A stretch of DNA of 64,000 nt from positions 50,305 to 114,304 of the forward strand of contig JANJVQ010000022.1 in assembly GCA_024710005.1 (NCBI GenBank). Reading direction: 5' to 3'. Made by a program: the position numbers and the translations under genes. The notes beneath the pieces were generated by a model. That model saw only the letters and a list, made by a program, of their open reading frames with translations. It ran no database searches and was not told where the DNA came from. Of this stretch, positions 30,123-40,098 are shown one piece after another. This stretch comes from Paludibacter sp. (GTDB taxonomy: Bacteria; Bacteroidota; Bacteroidia; Bacteroidales; Paludibacteraceae). The number at the start of each line of letters is the position of its first letter. Position 1 is the first letter of the stretch.

Positions 30123-30893
30123 CTATTTTTTGAGATTATCCAACAAAACTTCTACGGCAGTGCCAATTTGATGCTGTTCGCCGAGGGTTTTGATGAAAGC
30201 CGAACCTATAATTGCTCCTGAGGCATGTTGATTGACCATTTCGAGGGTTGCTTTATTAGAAACCCCAAAACCAATCAACCTTGGATTTTTCAATCCCATG
30301 GCATTGATGCGATTGAAATAGGCAATGCGACTGTCGAACGATTGTTGAGTGCCGGTCACGGCTGCCGAAGAAACCATGTAGATAAATCCGTTTGTATGTT
30401 CATCGATTTCACGGATTCTGCCTTCAGAAGTTTCAGGTGTAATCAGAAAAATGAATTTCAGATTAAAACTTTCAGCAATAAGTTTGTATTCAGCCAAATA
30501 ATCCGACATAGGCAGATCCGGTATAATCATGCCGTCCACACCAACCCGACTGCACTCCCGGCAAAAGTTTTCAAAACCGAATTGCATCACGGGGTTGAGA
30601 TAACCCATCATCACCAATGGAATTTGGATTTCCCGGCGTATATCGGTCAACTGACTGAACAACTTGCGAATGCTCATGCCATTTTGCAGGGCTTCATGGC
30701 TCGACTGCTGAATAACAGGTCCGTCAGCCATCGGATCGGAAAACGGAATCCCTATTTCGACCAAATCAACACCATTTGCCTGTAATGCTTTTAGTACCGG
30801 CACTGTATCTTCTAATTGTGGGAAACCGGCTGTAAAATAAACTGAAAGAATATTCTTCTGTTTCTTTTCGAACAATTGATTGATTCTATTCAT
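30123..30893 (-). CDS. trpA: Tryptophan synthase alpha subunit
   Basis: GVDLVEIGIPFSDPMADGPVIQQSS. Confidence 0.97.
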   Translation of the reverse strand: MNRINQLFEKKQKNILSVYFTAGFPQLEDTVPVLKALQANGVDLVEIGIPFSDPMADGPVIQQSSHEALQNGMSIRKLFSQLTDIRREIQIPLVMMGYLNPVMQFGFENFCRECSRVGVDGMIIPDLPMSDYLAEYKLIAESFNLKFIFLITPETSEGRIREIDEHTNGFIYMVSSAAVTGTQQSFDSRIAYFNRINAMGLKNPRLIGFGVSNKATLEMVNQHASGAIIGSAFIKTLGEQHQIGTAVEVLLDNLKK

Positions 30894-31519
30894 AACTCGT
30901 TAAGCTGTTTGATAAATTGTTGTAATAATTCATAATCTTTGATTGCCGGAGCAGTTTCGAATCTGCTGTTTAAATCAACTCCCCTGAAATATGGATGATT
31001 GATCTTTTGTATCTCGCAGACATCATCCGAACCAATTCCCCCACTGAGGAAAAAAGGGGTATCTCCATGATAAACATCAAGTAAACTCCAGTCAAACTTG
31101 GAGCCTGATCCTCCGTAAGAAGCTGTCTTCGTATCAAACAAGAAATAATCGACCTGACGATTATAACGCGCTGCATTTTTAAAATCTTCAGCTGAATGTA
31201 TTTGAAAAGCTTTCAATACTATTAAACCTTTATTTTTCAGGAAACTGCAAAGATCAACTGACTCATCTCCATGTAACTGTACTGCCTGCAAATCGTATAA
31301 TTCCACCTTTTGCATGATATCTTCTTCGGAAGCATTGACAAAAACCCCGGTTTTTGTCGTGTTCTGACCAAATCTGATATGCTTTAGCGCTTCAGGTGAT
31401 GATACATACCTTGGAGATTGAGGATAGAAAATGAATCCCATAAAATCAGGAGTGAGTGTCAACACTTCACGTATGTTGTCAGCATCGCGCATGCCGCATA
31501 TTTTAATTAAAACATTCAT
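30890..31519 (-). CDS. trpF: Phosphoribosylanthranilate isomerase
   Basis: KICGMRDADNI, FFLSGGIGSDDV. Confidence 0.95.
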   Translation of the reverse strand: MNVLIKICGMRDADNIREVLTLTPDFMGFIFYPQSPRYVSSPEALKHIRFGQNTTKTGVFVNASEEDIMQKVELYDLQAVQLHGDESVDLCSFLKNKGLIVLKAFQIHSAEDFKNAARYNRQVDYFLFDTKTASYGGSGSKFDWSLLDVYHGDTPFFLSGGIGSDDVCEIQKINHPYFRGVDLNSRFETAPAIKDYELLQQFIKQLNEL

Positions 31520-31525
31520 TTTTTC

Positions 31526-31560
31526 AAGTGGTGAGTGGTCAATGGTCAGTGGTTAGTTCG
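31526..31560 (-). repeat. Heptamer array spanning the trpC stop and trpC-trpF spacer
   Basis: Minus: ACTAACC ACTGACC ATTGACC ACTCACC ACTTG. Confidence 0.85.
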
Positions 31561-32340
31561 TTTTTTTAGTTTCTCAACAAAACTGGTTAATGCTTTTGCA
31601 GGATTTAGTTCTTTCATGAAGTTTTCTCCCATCAGAAAGCCCTGATATCCTGCATTTTTAAGCACATTAACCGTTTCAGGAGAAGAAATGCCACTTTCAC
31701 TTATTTTGACAAATTGATCCGGAATCAATCCTGCCAGTTCAAGCGAAACATTTGTACTGACTTCAAAAGTTTTTAAATTACGGTTGTTCACACCTACCAT
31801 ATCCACAAAATCATTGATATATACAAGTTCTTCCCTGTTATGAATTTCCAGTAACACTTCCAGCGACAACGCTTTTGCCTGCCGGGCAAGCTCGAGCGTA
31901 TCATCTACTGTTAACGCCGCTGCAATCAATAAAATCACATCAGCTCCCATCGCTTTTGCTTCGAATAACTGATAAACATCAATGATAAAATCCTTACGCA
32001 GGATGGGACAATGCACATGCGGACGGGCTGCTGTCAGGTCTTCAGGTACGCCGCCGAAATACTTGCTGTCGGTCAAAACAGAAATGCCGGCTGCCCCTGC
32101 TTCATCATATCCCGAAGTAATCTCCACCACGTCCGCCTCTTCGTGTATCCAACCTTTCGAAGGTGATTTTCTTTTAAACTCAGCTATAATGCCTGAAGAT
32201 GATGCAATCAACCTGTCTTTCAGAGAAATGCATTTTCTACTGAAATAGGGTGCGGTTCGTAAATCATCAATCGTTACTAATTTTTTACGATTTGCAACTT
32301 CTGTTTTTTTATCTGCAATTATGTTGTCTAATATCGTCAT
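31546..32340 (-). CDS. trpC: Indole-3-glycerol phosphate synthase
   Basis: IIAEFKRKSPSKGWI, GVNNRNLKTFEV. Confidence 0.96.
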   Translation of the reverse strand: MTILDNIIADKKTEVANRKKLVTIDDLRTAPYFSRKCISLKDRLIASSSGIIAEFKRKSPSKGWIHEEADVVEITSGYDEAGAAGISVLTDSKYFGGVPEDLTAARPHVHCPILRKDFIIDVYQLFEAKAMGADVILLIAAALTVDDTLELARQAKALSLEVLLEIHNREELVYINDFVDMVGVNNRNLKTFEVSTNVSLELAGLIPDQFVKISESGISSPETVNVLKNAGYQGFLMGENFMKELNPAKALTSFVEKLKKRTNH

Positions 32341-32363
32341 GCCTCCTTAATTATACATTATTT

Positions 32364-32382
32364 GGGCGCAAGGGTTGCGCCC
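32364..32382. repeat. Palindromic hairpin GGGCGCAA-GGG-TTGCGCCC in trpD-trpC spacer
   Basis: 8-bp perfect arms. Confidence 0.85.
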
Positions 32383-32394
32383 CTACGTTTTCTG

Positions 32395-33390
32395 TTAATT
32401 GTATATTTCAATAAATTTCCGAAACGCATTGATTGCCGATCCACTTTGCAGCGATTCCATGGCTTCTGTTTTACAATCTTCGATTGATTTAAGCGGACAA
32501 CGGGTCTGGATTGCCAAAGCGGCATTGATAATCACCGCATCTCTTTGTGCAGTTGAAGCTTTATTCTCAAGCACATTCAGGAAAATTGCCGCAGCATCCT
32601 GTACAGTTGCACCGCCCCATAAAGCCTGTTGTTCAATCTTATTAAAGCCCAATTCTTCCGGAGTAAAAATAAATTCGCCTGTATTGTTTACTACCTTAGT
32701 GGTATCTGTCAGCGATATTTCATCATAACCATCCAAGCTGTGTACGATGCTATACTGAGCACCTAAACGTTGATAGATATAGCTATACAACCGCATCATC
32801 TTCAGGTTATAAACACCCAAACACTGATATTTGGGTTGCGCCGGATTGATAAGGGGTCCGAGCACATTGAAGAATGTTCGCACACCCAGATTTTTCCTCA
32901 CCGGCGCCACATGTTTCATCGCAGGATTGAAAATAGGTGCATGCAAATAAGCAAAACCCGAACCATCCAAAGATGTTTTCAAGACTGACTCATCCGTAGT
33001 AAATTTTGCACCAAAATATTCGAGTACATTGGAGGAACCACTCACTGATGTTGCTCCATAGTTGCCGTGCTTGGCGACTTTATAACCGGCGCCTGCCACC
33101 ACAAAACAAGCAGCAGTTGAGATATTGAAAGTGTTTTTTCCATCACCTCCTGTCCCTACAATATCCATAATCCCGAAGTCCGACAAATCAACCTTCACAG
33201 CCATGGAAAGCAAAGCATCCCTGAACCCGATGATTTCATCCAATTCAATGCTACGCATCAGGTACACCGAGATAAAAGCAGCAATCTGCGCCTCGTTGTA
33301 TAATCCTGCTGCCATATTGGTCATCACCTCTGTGGCCTCATTCCTCGATAAGGATTGATGATCGAATAATCTGTTTAAAATTTGTTTCAT
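32395..33390 (-). CDS. trpD: Anthranilate phosphoribosyltransferase
   Basis: IVGTGGDGKNTFNISTAACFVVAGAG. Confidence 0.96.
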   Translation of the reverse strand: MKQILNRLFDHQSLSRNEATEVMTNMAAGLYNEAQIAAFISVYLMRSIELDEIIGFRDALLSMAVKVDLSDFGIMDIVGTGGDGKNTFNISTAACFVVAGAGYKVAKHGNYGATSVSGSSNVLEYFGAKFTTDESVLKTSLDGSGFAYLHAPIFNPAMKHVAPVRKNLGVRTFFNVLGPLINPAQPKYQCLGVYNLKMMRLYSYIYQRLGAQYSIVHSLDGYDEISLTDTTKVVNNTGEFIFTPEELGFNKIEQQALWGGATVQDAAAIFLNVLENKASTAQRDAVIINAALAIQTRCPLKSIEDCKTEAMESLQSGSAINAFRKFIEIYN

Positions 33391-33413
33391 GTTTTTATAT
33401 TTATGTCTAATTT

Positions 33414-33540
33414 ATCCCCCGCCAGTGAACTGGCGGGCCAGACAGGGCGCAAGCATTGCGCCTACGGCCTACGGTCTCCGCTTTCCGTTCTCCGCTATTC
33501 GCTATTCACTATTCACTATTCACTATTCGCTAATAATTAC
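33414..33540 (-). repeat. Two palindromic hairpins plus heptamer array in trpG-trpD spacer
   Basis: ccccgccagtgaactggcggg; gggcgcaagcattgcgcc; then drifting heptamers up to the trpG stop. Confidence 0.88.
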
Positions 33541-34103
33541 TGTTCCAACCAATTTCTCAACATCTCCTCCCCTTCCGGTGTCAGCACCGATTCCGGATGA
33601 AATTGTACACCCCGCACATCAAATTGCTTATGCGCCAATGCCATGATCATGCCGGACTCATCGACTGCAGTCACCTTCAAACAATCGGGCAAAGATTCCT
33701 TCTCAACAGCCCAGGAATGATATCGGCCTACGGTCATTTTTCCCGGCAAATTGTTGAACAACACATCATTTTCAAGTACTTGTATTTCAGACGTTACACC
33801 ATGATGCACCTCCGGCAGGTTTATCAGCTTACCTCCAAATGCTTCAGCGATGGCCTGTTCGCCCAAACAAACACCCAATATACTTTTAGAAGCGGCATAA
33901 GTCTTTATCAAATCCAATAGAATCCCCGACTCGGAGGGTACTCCCGGCCCCGGTGACAAGATAATTTTGTCATAAATCGCTATTGCTTCTAAAGCAATCT
34001 GATCATTGCGGTGTACTTCAACATCATTATATCCGAGCTTTTTCAGCGCATGCACGATGTTGTAGGTAAAAGAATCGTAATTGTCGAATACTAATATTTT
34101 CAT
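33537..34103 (-). CDS. trpG: Anthranilate synthase component II (glutamine amidotransferase)
   Basis: LSPGPGVPSESG, GVCLGEQAIAEAFGG, GVQFHPESVLTPEG. Confidence 0.95.
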   Translation of the reverse strand: MKILVFDNYDSFTYNIVHALKKLGYNDVEVHRNDQIALEAIAIYDKIILSPGPGVPSESGILLDLIKTYAASKSILGVCLGEQAIAEAFGGKLINLPEVHHGVTSEIQVLENDVLFNNLPGKMTVGRYHSWAVEKESLPDCLKVTAVDESGMIMALAHKQFDVRGVQFHPESVLTPEGEEMLRNWLEQ

Positions 34104-34150
34104 GTTTTTTTTTAATCTAATGTCAAACGACTAATCTTATGCATCGATAT

Positions 34151-34240
34151 CCCCCGCCAGTGAACTGGCGGGCTAGACAGGGCCAAGCATTGCGCCCCTA
34201 CGCTCTCCGCTTTCCGCTATTCACTATTCGCTAACTGAAT
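34151..34240 (-). repeat. Palindromic hairpins plus heptamer array in trpE-trpG spacer
   Basis: cccccgccagtgaactggcggg...; tctccgctttccgctattcactattcgctaa. Confidence 0.88.
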
Positions 34241-35623
34241 CGCCCGCTTCAACGCCGCCAACTTATTATTTACTTCCTGCAATTCACTTTCTTCATCAGA
34301 TTTCGCTACCACACCTGCTCCGGCCTGATAATACAGGGTATTTTGTTTGCTTACAAAGGAACGGATGGTGATGGCCTGGTTGAAACTGCCATCGAAACCA
34401 ATATAACCCAAACAACCTCCGTAGGGTCCTCGGTCATGCGGTTCAATCTCATCAATCAGCTGCATTGCCCTGATTTTTGGTGCGCCCGACAATGTTCCGG
34501 CCGGAAATGTATCGGCAAAAAGCTTGATGACTTTAGTCTCAGGTCTGAGTTTTCCGCTGACACTTGAGACCAGATGCAACACATGCGAATAATATTGCAC
34601 TTCCCTGAAAACTTCCACTTCCACATTTTCAGTATTGCGACTCAGGTCGTTGCGCGCCAAATCAACCAACATCACATGTTCGGCATTTTCTTTTTTATCC
34701 TTGCTTAACTTTTCTGCCAGCTCCAGGTCTTTTTCATCATCACCGGTGCGACGGAAAGTCCCGGCTATCGGTTTAATAAATGCTTTCTGTTTTTTTCCAT
34801 CCACCACCAAATGTGCCTCCGGCGATGAGCCGAAAATCCGGAAATTTCCAAAATTAAAATAAAACAAGTAGGGAGAAGGATTGACGGAGCGAAGTGTGCG
34901 GTACAACATAAAATCATCGCCCCTGAACTGCTGATAAAACCTTCTTGAAAGCACAATCTGAAAAACATTCCCCTTGAAACATTCTTCTTTGCCACGTGCA
35001 ACCATTTTTCTAAAATCATCATCAGAAATATCGCATCTCTCCTCACCTACCGGTTGAAAATCGAATGTGGCAATGTTATTATTCAACAGCACTTTCTCAA
35101 TCACATCAATTTCAGATTTCTCTGCTTCCTGCAGGTTCTCAATGATGGTCAACTCATTATTAAAATGATTAATCGCGATAATGTACTTAAACAGCACATA
35201 ATGCAAACCCGGCATCGAACCCGGGACCGTTTCACGCGCATGCAGTTTGACATCTTCAAAATACTGTACCGACTCGTAAGAGGTATATCCCAGCAAACCA
35301 TTAATCAGTCCTTTTTCTGTTGGCTGATTAATCAATTCAAATGATTTGAGAAAAACATCAAAACGATCCGCCACCGTCATTTTATCCGCAACTTTCGTTT
35401 CAATTTGCTTTCCATCCGGATATTCTTCTTTGATCAGAAATCGGTTCACCGAAATACCACCCACGGGTGCAAAACCTATATACGAAAAACTGTTTTCGGT
35501 CCCGTGATAATCAGAGCTCTCCAGCAGCACCGAGTTGGTATACAAATCCCGTATTTTCAGATATATACCCACAGGTGTCTGCATATCTGCCAGCATTTTT
35601 TTTGTATGTACGTATAATTTCAT
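34217..35623 (-). CDS. trpE: Anthranilate synthase component I
   Basis: FQIVLSRRF, AGTFRRTGDDEKD, FPAGTLSGAPKIRAMQLIDEIE. Confidence 0.95.
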   Translation of the reverse strand: MKLYVHTKKMLADMQTPVGIYLKIRDLYTNSVLLESSDYHGTENSFSYIGFAPVGGISVNRFLIKEEYPDGKQIETKVADKMTVADRFDVFLKSFELINQPTEKGLINGLLGYTSYESVQYFEDVKLHARETVPGSMPGLHYVLFKYIIAINHFNNELTIIENLQEAEKSEIDVIEKVLLNNNIATFDFQPVGEERCDISDDDFRKMVARGKEECFKGNVFQIVLSRRFYQQFRGDDFMLYRTLRSVNPSPYLFYFNFGNFRIFGSSPEAHLVVDGKKQKAFIKPIAGTFRRTGDDEKDLELAEKLSKDKKENAEHVMLVDLARNDLSRNTENVEVEVFREVQYYSHVLHLVSSVSGKLRPETKVIKLFADTFPAGTLSGAPKIRAMQLIDEIEPHDRGPYGGCLGYIGFDGSFNQAITIRSFVSKQNTLYYQAGAGVVAKSDEESELQEVNNKLAALKRAIQLANSE

Positions 35624-35657: not shown

Positions 35658-35714
35658 TCCCCCGGGTTAAAACCCGGGGCTATAGATTATTCGTTATTCG
35701 CTATTCGCTTAACA
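35658..35714 (-). repeat. Palindromic hairpin (CCCCGGGTTAAAACCCGGGG) plus heptamer array in trpB-trpE spacer
   Basis: cccccgggttaaaacccggggc; minus AAGCGAA TAGCGAA TAACGAA TAA. Confidence 0.88.
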
Positions 35715-36874
35715 TACGTTTCCATATCCTTATCACCCCTGCCAGAAACCGTCAATACAACAACATCATCGGGTTTAAAGTTTGGCTGTTCCTTTTTCAG
35801 CACGCCCAGCGCATGAGCCGATTCAATGGCCGGAATGATTCCTTCCATTTTCGTAAGTTCAAATGCAGCCACAAGGGCCTCATCATCGTTAATGGCATGA
35901 ACTTTTGTTCGTCCAATTTGCGCAAAATGAGCATGTGCAGGTCCAACTCCCGGATAGTCCAGTCCGGCCGAAATAGAATAAGGCTCAATAATCTGCCCAT
36001 CCTCATCCTGCATCAGCAACGTTCTGAAACCGTGGATTATTCCTACCGTTCCGACATGTATTGTAGCAGCAGTTTCCCCCGATTCAATACCCAAACCACC
36101 TGCTTCCGCCGAAATAATCTTCACCCGTTCATCATTCAGATAATGAAAATATGTACCCATAGCATTGCTGCCACCGCCCACACAAGCAATCAGGTAATCC
36201 GGATAATTCCGGTTTATTTGTTCCTGTAATTGTGACTTAATTTCTTCTGATATAACCGACTGAAAATAGGCCACCATATCCGGATAAGGATGCGGTCCGA
36301 CCGTGGAACCAATGATGTAAAACGAATCGGGATTAGAGCACCAGTAACGAATAGCTTCATTTGTAGCATCCTTCAGGGTCATGTTACCACTGGTCACCGG
36401 CTCGACTTTGGCGCCCAGCATGTTCATTTTCTGCACATTCAGGAACTGTCTGTCCACATCCGTTTTACCCATAAACACGATACATTCCAAGCCCATGAGG
36501 GCACAGGCAGTGGCAGTAGCCACACCATGTTGTCCGGCGCCGGTTTCAGCAATAATTCGTGTTTTTCCCATGCGTTTGGCCAATAATATCTGACCCAGTG
36601 CATTGTTGATTTTATGCGACCCGGTGTGATTCAGGTCTTCTCTTTTCAGGTAGATGTTGGTTCCGTATAAAGCCGACAGCCTTTTCGCATGATACAATGG
36701 AGAAGGTCTCCCTGCATAGTGTTTCAGCAAATCATAATATTCAGCTTTAAAAGCCGGATCAGCTTTTGCTTCATCGAAAGCAGCTTTTAAACGTTCAACA
36801 GAGCCATGTAGTATTTCAGGGATGTAAGCTCCTCCGAATGTTCCGTAATATCCTTTATTATCCGGTTGATTCAT
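35687..36874 (-). CDS. trpB: Tryptophan synthase beta subunit
   Basis: LKREDLNHTGSHKINNALGQ; start MNQPDNKGYYGTFGGAYIPE at 36874 preferred over 36931. Confidence 0.96.
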   Translation of the reverse strand: MNQPDNKGYYGTFGGAYIPEILHGSVERLKAAFDEAKADPAFKAEYYDLLKHYAGRPSPLYHAKRLSALYGTNIYLKREDLNHTGSHKINNALGQILLAKRMGKTRIIAETGAGQHGVATATACALMGLECIVFMGKTDVDRQFLNVQKMNMLGAKVEPVTSGNMTLKDATNEAIRYWCSNPDSFYIIGSTVGPHPYPDMVAYFQSVISEEIKSQLQEQINRNYPDYLIACVGGGSNAMGTYFHYLNDERVKIISAEAGGLGIESGETAATIHVGTVGIIHGFRTLLMQDEDGQIIEPYSISAGLDYPGVGPAHAHFAQIGRTKVHAINDDEALVAAFELTKMEGIIPAIESAHALGVLKKEQPNFKPDDVVVLTVSGRGDKDMETYVKRIANNE

Positions 36875-36944: not shown

Positions 36945-36982
36945 AAAAAAGGCTTATCGTGAGTTCCGACAAGCCTTTTCAA
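36945..36982 (-). terminator. Attenuator terminator of trp operon leader
   Basis: Minus: AAAAGGCTTGTCG-GAACTCA-CGATAAGCCTTTTTTGTTTT. Confidence 0.9.
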
Positions 36983-37017
36983 ATATAATTCATTTGATAA
37001 ATACATGTTTATAACAC

Positions 37018-37083
37018 TCACGAACCGAAATTCTGCAAGCGCCACCACCAAGCTGTATTTATTAAATTCTGTTTCATTTTCAT
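37018..37083 (-). CDS. trpL: trp operon leader peptide MKMKQNLINTAWWWRLQNFGS
   Basis: 21 codons with three consecutive TGG; between promoter box and terminator upstream of trpB; not in ORF track because of its size. Confidence 0.88.
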   Translation of the reverse strand: MKMKQNLINTAWWWRLQNFGS

Positions 37084-37097
37084 ATTAATTCGACGAC

Positions 37098-37130
37098 AAA
37101 GATATAAATGTAATTTTAATTATACAAATT
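37098..37130 (-). promoter_or_regulatory. trp operon promoter: -33 TTTG, 20-nt spacer, -7 TATCTTTG
   Basis: Minus: TTTGTATAATTAAAATTACATTTATATCTTTG. Confidence 0.7.
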
Positions 37131-37146
37131 TAATTACAATTTTTTA

Positions 37147-40098
37147 TCACAAAGTCTTTTTAACTTCGGTTTCCTCAAAACTTTCAATCATGTCACCAAC
37201 GCGGATGTCGTTGTAATTTTTGATATTCAAACCACATTCGTAATTGGTTCCGACTTCTTTCACATCTTCTTTGAAACGTTTCAGGGATTCCAGTTCGCCG
37301 GTATAAATTACAATGCCGTCGCGGATAATGTGCACTTTGTTCGTTCTCTTAATTTTACCTTCGCGAACGAGACAACCTGCAACCGTACCAACCTTTGTAA
37401 TCTTGAATACTTCACGAACCTCAACTGTGGCCGTAACTTCTTCCTTGATTTCAGGAGAAAGCATACCTTCCATTGCCGATTTAATTTCTTCAATTGCATC
37501 GTAGATGATAGAATACAAGCGCACATCGATTTCCTCTTTTTCAGCCATCTTACGGGCAGAAGCGGTCGGACGAACCTGGAAACCGCAAATAATTGCATTG
37601 GACGCAGCTGCCAGCAAAATATCAGAATCCGAAATCGCCCCAACAGCCTTATGAATGACATTTATCTGAATATTCTCTGTTGAAAGTTTGAGTAAGGAGT
37701 CAGCAAGCGCTTCCACAGAACCGTCCACATCCCCTTTTACAATGATATTCAGCTCTTTGAAATCTCCCAAAGCGATACGACGACCCAATTCGTCCAGGGT
37801 AAAGTGTTTCTTGGTACGCAAACTTTGCTCACGTTGCAGTTGTTCCCGTTTATTGGCAATTTCACGCGCTTCCTGTTCGGTTGCCATCACATTGAAATTG
37901 TCGCCGGCCTGTGGGGCTCCATTCAAACCAAGAATCAACACCGGTTCAGCAGGTTTTGCCTCCTGAATACGCTGATTTCTTTCATTAAACATGGCTTTCA
38001 CCCTGCCGTGATAAATTCCGGCCAACACCACATCTCCCATTTTCAGGGTACCATTCTCAACCAATATGGTTGAAATATAACCCCGACCTTTATCAAGCGA
38101 TGATTCAATCACTGAACCTACAGCTCTTTTATTCGGATTGGCTTTCAGTTCAAGCATTTCAGCTTCAAGCAATACTTTTTCAAGCAGTTCTGCTATACCC
38201 ATACCCTGTTTGGCTGATATATCCTGCGATTGGTATTTACCACCCCAGTCTTCAACCAAATAATTCATGTTAGCAAGCGTTTCCTTGATTTTTTCAGGAT
38301 TTGCACCTGGCTTATCAACCTTGTTGATGGCAAAAATCATCGGCACTCCCGCAGCAGATGCGTGGTTAATCGCTTCAATCGTCTGGGGCATCACATTATC
38401 ATCAGCCGCCACGATGATAATCGCGATATCTGTCACTTTTGCACCACGGGCACGCATGGCGGTAAATGCTTCGTGACCGGGAGTATCGAGGAATGTAATG
38501 CGCTGACCGTTATCTAATTTCACATTATAGGCACCGATGTGCTGTGTAATACCACCGGCTTCACCCGCGATTACATTAGTTTTGCGGATATAGTCGAGTA
38601 AAGAAGTTTTACCATGGTCAACGTGACCCATCACCGTTACAATCGGGGCACGTGGTTGCAGATCTGCTTCATCATCCGGCTCATCCTCACCAATGGCTTC
38701 TACCACATCCGCACTAACGAACTCAGTTGTAAAACCAAATTCATCAGCAACAATATTGATTGTTTCGGCATCAAGACGCTGGTTGATTGAAACCATCATA
38801 CCAATACTCATACAAGTGGCTATTACCTGATTGACAGAAATATCCATCATTACAGCCAATTCACTTACCGTTACAAACTCGGTGAGTTTCAATACCTTTT
38901 CCTGTTCGCGTTCCTGCATTTCCAACTCACTCTGGCGGGCAGAAAAGCTATCACGTTTTTCTCTGCGGTACTTAGCGCCCTTACCTTTTTTGTTGGTTCC
39001 GGCCATTCTTGCCAAGGTTTCTTTGATCTGACGTTGCACTTCTTCTTCGTCAACAACCGTTTTCAAAGGCTTCTTAAATTTATCCTTAGCCAGTTTAGCC
39101 TGCATGCCACCTGCCTGAGCCGGTTTTTTCGAATGATCTACCGGGAAATGTTCGATATCTACTTTTTGATTTGAGAAACGTTCCCGTTTCTTTTTCTTTT
39201 TGATATCTTCTTCTGTTTCTACATGATTCTTTTTCTTTTCATCAATCGCATTTTTGGCTTTTTCCTCCCTTTCCTTTTTCTTTTGTTCTTTTGTTTTGGG
39301 TTTGGGACGGGTAGTTTGATTCAGTGCATCCAGGTCAATACGACCCAACACAACCGGTTTAATTTCAACCACAGGTCTGGCAATGGAGAACACTTCATCT
39401 TCATCATCTTTTTCTGATTCGACTTCAGGCTCTTGCTCTTTTTCTACAACCACTTGTTTTTCTTCTTCCTGCGAATCAACTTCTTTAGAAACAACTGGTT
39501 CGATTTGAGGAGTAATTTCAGGTTGCTCCGAAACTTCCACTTCCTGATTGATTTCCGGTATAACTTCTACTGAGTGTTCTTCAGCAACTGCTTCCTGAAC
39601 AATTTCAACTGGTTCTTGAACCAGCTCATTAACAACAGGAATCTCAACTTCTTCTTTTTCAACCACTTTAAGTTCCTCAACAGGTTCTGTTGTTTTTACC
39701 GGTTCTTGCACAACCGGTTCAGGTTTTATCGGTTCAGGCTTTTTGTTGATAGCATCCAAATCAATTTTACCAACCTGTTTGATTGAAGGCAACTGATCAA
39801 CCGGCACCTCAACGGGGATGATATTTTCTGCTTTCTCTGCTGTTTTCTTAGCGCCATAACCTTCCAACGCAACGGTTGATGCCTTTTCTTTCTGGTGGCG
39901 CTCCTGACTGATGCGTTCCGACTCCATTTTCAGAGCCATGTCTTTATTGAACTCTTTTACCAATAACAAGTGAAGTTCATCCGACAATTTCAGGTTGGGA
40001 TCAACGGCAATCTTGTTTCCTTTTTTGGCTAAAAAGTCAACTGCTGTGGTTATACCGATATTTAATTCTTTACAAGCTTTACTTAATCTGATGGGCAT
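37147..40098 (-). CDS. infB: Translation initiation factor IF-2
   Basis: [40 protein letters not shown]. Confidence 0.98.

Follow-up and report, generated by a model that had tools for sequence, protein, structure and literature searches.

A Bacteroid-trp tryptophan leader of Paludibacter sp. as a probable ribosome-mediated attenuator with a proposed loop-capturing antiterminator

Introduction

Ribosome-mediated attenuation of the trp operon relies on a leader peptide with tryptophan codons and on RNA regions that pair in alternative ways. In the trp leader of E. coli region 3 is the 5' side of the terminator, and sequestering it prevents the terminator hairpin from forming. The window analysed here (the whole stretch of 64,000 nucleotides from Paludibacter sp., contig JANJVQ010000022.1) contains a short reading frame with tandem Trp codons followed by a terminator directly before trpB. 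The question raised by this locus is whether such a leader works as a transcription attenuator and, if so, which part of the terminator is taken by the antiterminator. It is proposed, with a probability of about 0.8, that the trp operon is controlled here by a ribosome-mediated transcription attenuator belonging to the Bacteroid-trp (RF01692) kind, in which region 2 of the leader captures the loop of the terminator and the top of its 3' arm.

Organisation of the leader locus

The attenuator element is located on the minus strand, between infB (37147-40098) and trpB (Table 1). Its leader ORF contains three tandem Trp codons (TGGTGGTGG, 37050-37042) and is separated by a spacer of 38 nt from an intrinsic terminator, which precedes the first structural gene, an arrangement expected of a ribosome-mediated attenuator. 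The TTTG and TAtcTTTG boxes upstream fit the Bacteroidetes promoter pattern, and 99 of 139 relatives have a TAnnTTTG-like box no more than 75 nt before the W codons. The infB stop codon is situated 63 nt before the leader ATG (window 37084-37146) with no terminator between them, so read-through from the infB operon could also cross the attenuator. Among the products of the downstream genes, TrpG, TrpD, TrpC and TrpA reach the curated NCBIfam cut-off, and the best matches of TrpE and TrpF lie below it. TrpB is 100% identical to that of a Bacteroidetes bacterium MAG (L032) and 83-88% identical to those of Paludibacter MAGs.

Four helices are distinguished in the leader RNA: P1, 1:2, 2:3 and 3:4, the last being the terminator. 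In P1 the early part of the leader ORF pairs with the stretch that follows region 2, and region 2 can pair with either region 1 or region 3. Region 3 is the exact reverse complement of region 2, and these 8 pairs constitute the longest exact match between leader and terminator, a pairing better than that of all 100 shuffled leaders. The leader folds with -45.4 kcal/mol, far better than its shuffled versions (z -4.9), and the 13-bp hairpin is the sole terminator-like site in the region (shuffle mean 0.1). The position of the leader stop codon (TGA, 37020-37018) inside region 2 is not peculiar to this locus, as it is placed identically (TCG/TGA or TCG/TAA) in 40 of 57 loci.

The original prediction for this DNA comprised a Bacteroidetes-type promoter, a 21-aa leader ORF with three tandem Trp codons, a 13-bp terminator stem with a U-tract, the gene order trpBEGDCFA downstream and an exact complementarity between the end of the leader ORF and the loop and 3' arm of the terminator. 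All these parts are present, the gene order agreeing with the NCBIfam matches; the strand had not been given, and the 1:2 hairpin and the outer helix P1 had been overlooked. The length of the peptide requires correction. In the nearest relative (L003, TrpB 93%) the leader peptide begins at the second ATG, so the true start is probably the counterpart of this codon in the window (37077), and 19 aa is the likelier length.

Table 1. Features of the trp leader and operon (window coordinates; element parts written in transcript orientation)
Feature	Position	Strand	Description and basis
Promoter, Bacteroidetes-type	37097..37128	-	TTTG 37128-37125, 20 nt spacer, TATCTTTG (TAtcTTTG) 37104-37097; sequence
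Leader peptide ORF	37018..37083	-	MKMKQNLINTAWWWRLQNFGS; ORF reading; peptide rich in W before trpB in almost all Bacteroidales relatives checked
Outer helix P1	36992..37067	-	37067-37064/37062-37055 (ATTT.ATAAATAC) with 37004-36997/36995-36992 (GTATTTAT.AAAT); encloses regions 1 and 2; in RF01692 consensus
Region 1	37031..37041	-	CGCTTGCAGAA; directly after Trp codons; pairs with region 2; MFE fold
Region 2	37016..37023	-	TCGTGAGT; overlaps leader stop codon; partner region 1 or region 3
Region 3	36957..36964	-	ACTCACGA; 5 nt of terminator loop and first 3 nt of 3' arm
Intrinsic terminator	36947..36979	-	13-bp stem, 7-nt loop; 5' arm AAAAGGCTTGTCG 36979-36967, loop GAACTCA 36966-36960, 3' arm CGATAAGCCTTTT 36959-36947; then TTGTTTT (36946-36940)
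trpB, first structural gene	35687..36874	-	TIGR00263, above cut-off
trpE, trpG, trpD, trpC, trpF, trpA	30123..35623	-	NCBIfam best matches

Conservation of the leader

Regions upstream of trpB in TrpB relatives were parsed for a W-rich leader and a terminator. Of the 110 trpB loci taken, counted with copies, 83 have a leader with WW or WWW followed by a terminator. Within the family of the window the same arrangement occurs in 27 of 28 loci with a full upstream region, the exception being L022, and it is found likewise in records titled Phocaeicola, Parabacteroides, Dysgonamonadaceae, Tannerella, Prevotella, Alistipes and others. No such leader stands directly before trpB in the flavobacterial and Chitinophaga loci taken. 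Three tandem Trp codons are the rule in the parsed leaders (107/139), the remainder having two (32/139). Conservation of the leader ORF in relatives served as a check on the original prediction, and the W-rich leader proved to be kept across many families; with the terminator and gene context conserved just as widely, the proposed attenuation by a Trp-rich leader peptide is well supported.

Two observations concern particular records. Upstream of trpB in L047 the tandem Trp codons have been lost and a single TGG is left; this locus retains regions 1 and 2 (the latter GTCGTAAG) together with a terminator loop that matches (ACTTACGA). Bacteroidales-type trp loci also occur in records titled Porphyromonas cangingivalis, Lachnospiraceae, Pseudoflavonifractor, Clostridium, Clostridiales and Paenibacillus (L037, L046, L053, L062, L070, L096), which are probably mislabelled or mixed MAGs.

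Relation to known RNA families

At the gathering threshold an Rfam scan of the window returned two tRNAs only and no riboswitch family. In a relaxed search RF01692 (Bacteroid-trp) was found with 44.4 bits against a cut-off of 49 (E 1.7e-4 to 7e-4), aligned to 37096-36968 over the full length of the model (1-131) with several mismatches. Of 20 relatives scanned, 9 lie at or above the gathering cut-off, including orthologues from the same genus (L007, L008, L016), and for this reason the window leader is treated as a member despite its sub-threshold score. Like the family, it has tandem Trp codons in a short ORF that precedes trp genes; the consensus outer helix and apical hairpin are recovered in the alignment, the native fold and the coevolution; and it occurs in Bacteroidetes, as seen from the TrpB matches and from RF01692 matches in Bacteroidales and another family of the class. 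The RF01692 search gave matches in 37 of 247 Bacteroidales genomes and in 32 of 248 genomes of the phylum, the phylum matches belonging mostly to a single additional family within the class Bacteroidia; at 56 of the 58 loci of matches from both searches the parser recognised a W-rich leader and a terminator. The original prediction did not recognise this known family.

The RF01692 consensus contains the outer helix and the apical hairpin and ends at AAAAAGGCUUGUC, inside the 5' arm of the terminator, and thus the model includes neither the terminator loop nor the 3' arm nor the antiterminator, in which respect it differs from the window. Bacteroid-trp was described in 2010, and the main text of that paper presents it as a table row only, as cis-regulatory and not a switch (Weinberg et al., PMC2864571). 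A later paper notes the element before trp in Flavobacterium psychrophilum (PMC6414381). The open papers searched contain no test of how Bacteroid-trp works; the leader family has been known since 2010, and its antiterminator geometry is, as far as could be checked, undescribed.

Other tryptophan-related families do not account for the element. With RF00513 (Trp_leader, at least 41 bits) the window scores 15.6 bits (E 1.2), and with the trpB motif RF04312 (at least 59 bits) it scores 20.9 bits. The trpB motif resembles the present leader in its name, its terminator and its possible antiterminator, whereas it is a riboswitch candidate of Firmicutes and Fusobacteria (PMC11109978).

Coevolution of the pairings

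The pairings were evaluated by a swap test, in which helix partners are exchanged between relatives (61-67 representatives, <85% similarity). Native partners fit better than swapped ones in P1 (z -8.0), 1:2 (z -5.4), the core of 2:3 (z -9.1) and 3:4 (z -20.6), and the terminator 5' arm shows no coevolution with the leader segment beyond region 2 (z 0.0). Because relatedness inflates plain swap statistics, each locus was also exchanged only with its five closest relatives by TrpB. The core 2:3 pairing retained its significance (sign p 0.003, Wilcoxon p 3e-4), as did P1 (p 1e-5) and 3:4; the 1:2 signal was weak (Wilcoxon p 0.045), and neither the 5'-arm helix (p 0.26) nor a control stretch (p 0.50) was significant. 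Among near relatives coevolution of the loop alone was marginal (p 0.097).

In the core, 7.5 of 8 positions are paired on average, and in 37 of 67 loci the native pairing beats at least 95 of 100 shuffles. Compensatory changes are seen in two columns of the loop, whose bases have no partner in the terminator hairpin: that of the stop-codon base (TGA/CTCA to TAA/CTTA) and that of the last base. The column of the stop-codon base comprises 44 GC, 9 AT and 7 GT pairs and 1 mismatch in 61 loci. On the TrpB tree the best column shows about 4 independent changes in region 2 and 3 in region 3; the independent-pairs test on this tree was underpowered, and for this reason the swap statistics are not to be read as counts of independent events. 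The covariation of the core is consistent, although based on few events. These results support the claim that the partner of region 2 is the loop and 3' arm and not the 5' arm, and covariation across relatives speaks for P1, core 2:3 and 3:4 and less strongly for 1:2.

The fold switch under ribosome masks

Growing transcripts were folded at equilibrium with the ribosome footprint held unpaired; the footprints are approximate and the nested model cannot show pseudoknots. In the window, the terminator prevails at 3-4 nt of exposed 3' arm when the leader carries no ribosome or one at the stop codon; stalling of the ribosome on the second Trp codon raises this requirement to 8 nt. The E. coli trp leader, used as a control, shows a shift of 1-2 nt in the same direction. 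Averaged over 67 loci, the length of exposed 3' arm that is needed rises from 4.6 to 8.3 nt on stalling, and a stall delay of at least 2 nt is found in 59 of them, against 15 of 67 with shuffled leaders; in the 8 others the modelled switch is weak or absent. RNA folding, by which the original prediction was to be checked, gives the switch it called for. It can be said that in the computation the position of the ribosome switches alternative structures, as is characteristic of ribosome-mediated attenuators.

Best duplexes of many leaders also include a distal helix, formed by the downstream leader and the 5' arm. When parts of the antiterminator were ablated in 61 loci, the terminator required 5.8 nt of 3' arm with the core alone, 4.2 with the distal helix alone, 4.6 with region 2 covered and 8.5 with both. 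The stall delay was retained in 30 of the 61 loci by the core alone and in 4 by the distal helix alone. Since the core by itself delays the terminator and the distal helix by itself hardly does, the core is regarded as the necessary part, the distal contacts helping only together with it. The distal helix was also considered as a second, independent antiterminator, for which the swap, shuffle and ablation tests gave no support.

Proposed mechanism and rival explanations

With enough Trp-tRNA the ribosome would reach the stop codon and cover region 2, the terminator would form and transcription would end before trpB. With no ribosome on the leader, region 2 would be held by region 1 and P1, and the terminator would form as well. 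When Trp-tRNA is short, the ribosome is expected to stall on the Trp codons, covering region 1 and the 5' strand of P1 and leaving region 2 free to pair with the emerging terminator loop and to extend into the top of the 3' arm. During the passage of RNA polymerase over the U-tract this pairing would occupy the site from which the terminator nucleates, and transcription would proceed into trpBEGDCFA. RNA polymerase holds roughly 12-14 nt of RNA, so region 3 should emerge as the U-tract is made, and the outcome would be decided by the partner that gains the loop and the initial 3'-arm bases at this moment. The core occupies on average 4.2 nt (31%) of the 3' arm, and 3 of 13 nt in the window; as the lower terminator stem is not excluded by the core itself, the block would have to be largely kinetic. 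From the parts and their modelled folding we infer the actual stalling, the termination and the response to tryptophan.

The same geometry leaves the lower stem open to form, and it could in principle coexist with the core as a pseudoknot. Such a stable pseudoknot, with region 2 on the loop above the lower stem, might itself be the form that functions; it would influence RNA polymerase or termination through its structure and not as a simple competitor. Read from the sequence, the window would accommodate it, with 10 of 13 stem pairs remaining, a 5-nt linker (UCGGA) crossing the 8-bp helix and the helices stacking coaxially, and pairing of a terminator loop with an upstream hairpin has been proposed for the fhsA motif (PMC11109978). 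However, no result of the analysis shows a pseudoknot, and a 10-bp stem left before the U-tract would favour termination unless its formation were slow, which makes this explanation improbable. Slightly better placed, yet still unlikely, is an antiterminator like that of E. coli, in which the 5' arm of the terminator is bound by the leader segment beyond region 2, the match to the loop and 3' arm being accessory. In most loci the best duplexes do include a second short helix on the 5' arm (for example ACACCT with AGG..TGT, or GCAGCCT with AGGCCTG), and its addition deepens the modelled delay from 5.8 to 8.5 nt. Nevertheless this helix lacks coevolution, its mean z against shuffles is only -0.3, and the delay that it produces by itself is confined to the 4 loci mentioned above.

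The present leader and that of E. coli (RF00513) have in common the regulatory Trp codons, the 1:2 hairpin and the mutually exclusive 2:3 and 3:4 helices; they differ in region 3, which in the window consists of the loop and the top of the 3' arm, the core of 2:3 being placed there and not on the 5' arm. That the terminator is constitutive and the W-rich ORF a product of chance, or that regulation is due to a Trp-binding protein or a riboswitch, is hardly credible, given the WW/WWW codons, the stop-codon placement and the four helices conserved over many families, and the lack of any riboswitch family matched at the gathering threshold. The capture of the loop by region 2 is retained as the main reading.

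Other leaders in the genome and in Bacteroidales

Two further leaders of the same genome resemble the trp leader in having an amino-acid-rich leader ORF and a terminator upstream of a gene. A Phe/Tyr-rich leader (MTRFFTYFYFYFYFKR) with a terminator stands directly before pheA (L180:1863-1913, minus strand, equal to G000:C25:399362-399412), with no Rfam match found, and a Leu/Ile-rich leader (MNNNFLHILLLGIIILLQKQ) with a terminator precedes a leuA-like gene (L177:9566-9698, plus strand, in G000:C24). The best duplex lies on the terminator 5' arm in pheA and on the 5' arm and loop in leuA, in contrast to the loop and top of the 3' arm in trp; most Bacteroidales pheA leaders parsed likewise have it on the 5' arm. 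Near the leuA locus there is a TPP riboswitch-like match (L172:482-578, minus strand) of 48 bits (cut-off 54.3, E 3e-7). Before hisG in this genome there is a terminator, but it follows another gene, and no His-rich ORF was found, nor was a threonine/isoleucine leader found in the region of thrA (homoserine dehydrogenase).

The trp leaders themselves are not uniform. A group of 12 Muribaculaceae-type leaders (L045, L046, L053, L057, L058, L067, L069, L070, L086, L089, L095, L096; several of the records are titled Muribaculaceae) encodes a WWRIGNNYRWR-like peptide. Here region 2 (TCGATGGC), which contains a third Trp codon, pairs with GCCATCGA in the terminator 5' arm; the swap test in this group was not significant (p 0.07, n 12). 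These leaders may represent a register switch relative to other Bacteroidales. In leaders near Prevotella ruminicola GTCGCGA pairs with TCGCGAC at the top of the 5' arm and in the loop.

Significance

It appears somewhat probable that trp attenuators in much of the phylum Bacteroidota use a loop-capture antiterminator, in which the stop-codon region grabs the loop and the top of the 3' arm and blocks nucleation of the hairpin with no sequestering of the 5' arm, that pheA keeps 5'-arm designs, and that the Muribaculaceae-type group moved its trp switch to the 5' arm. The leader is now provided with a complete four-helix model including the terminator and the antiterminator, both absent from the Rfam entry, and this model predicts which bases to mutate. 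If loop capture is true, it would constitute a second geometry for ribosome-mediated attenuation, and the two geometries could be compared inside one genome, trp on one side and pheA and leuA on the other.
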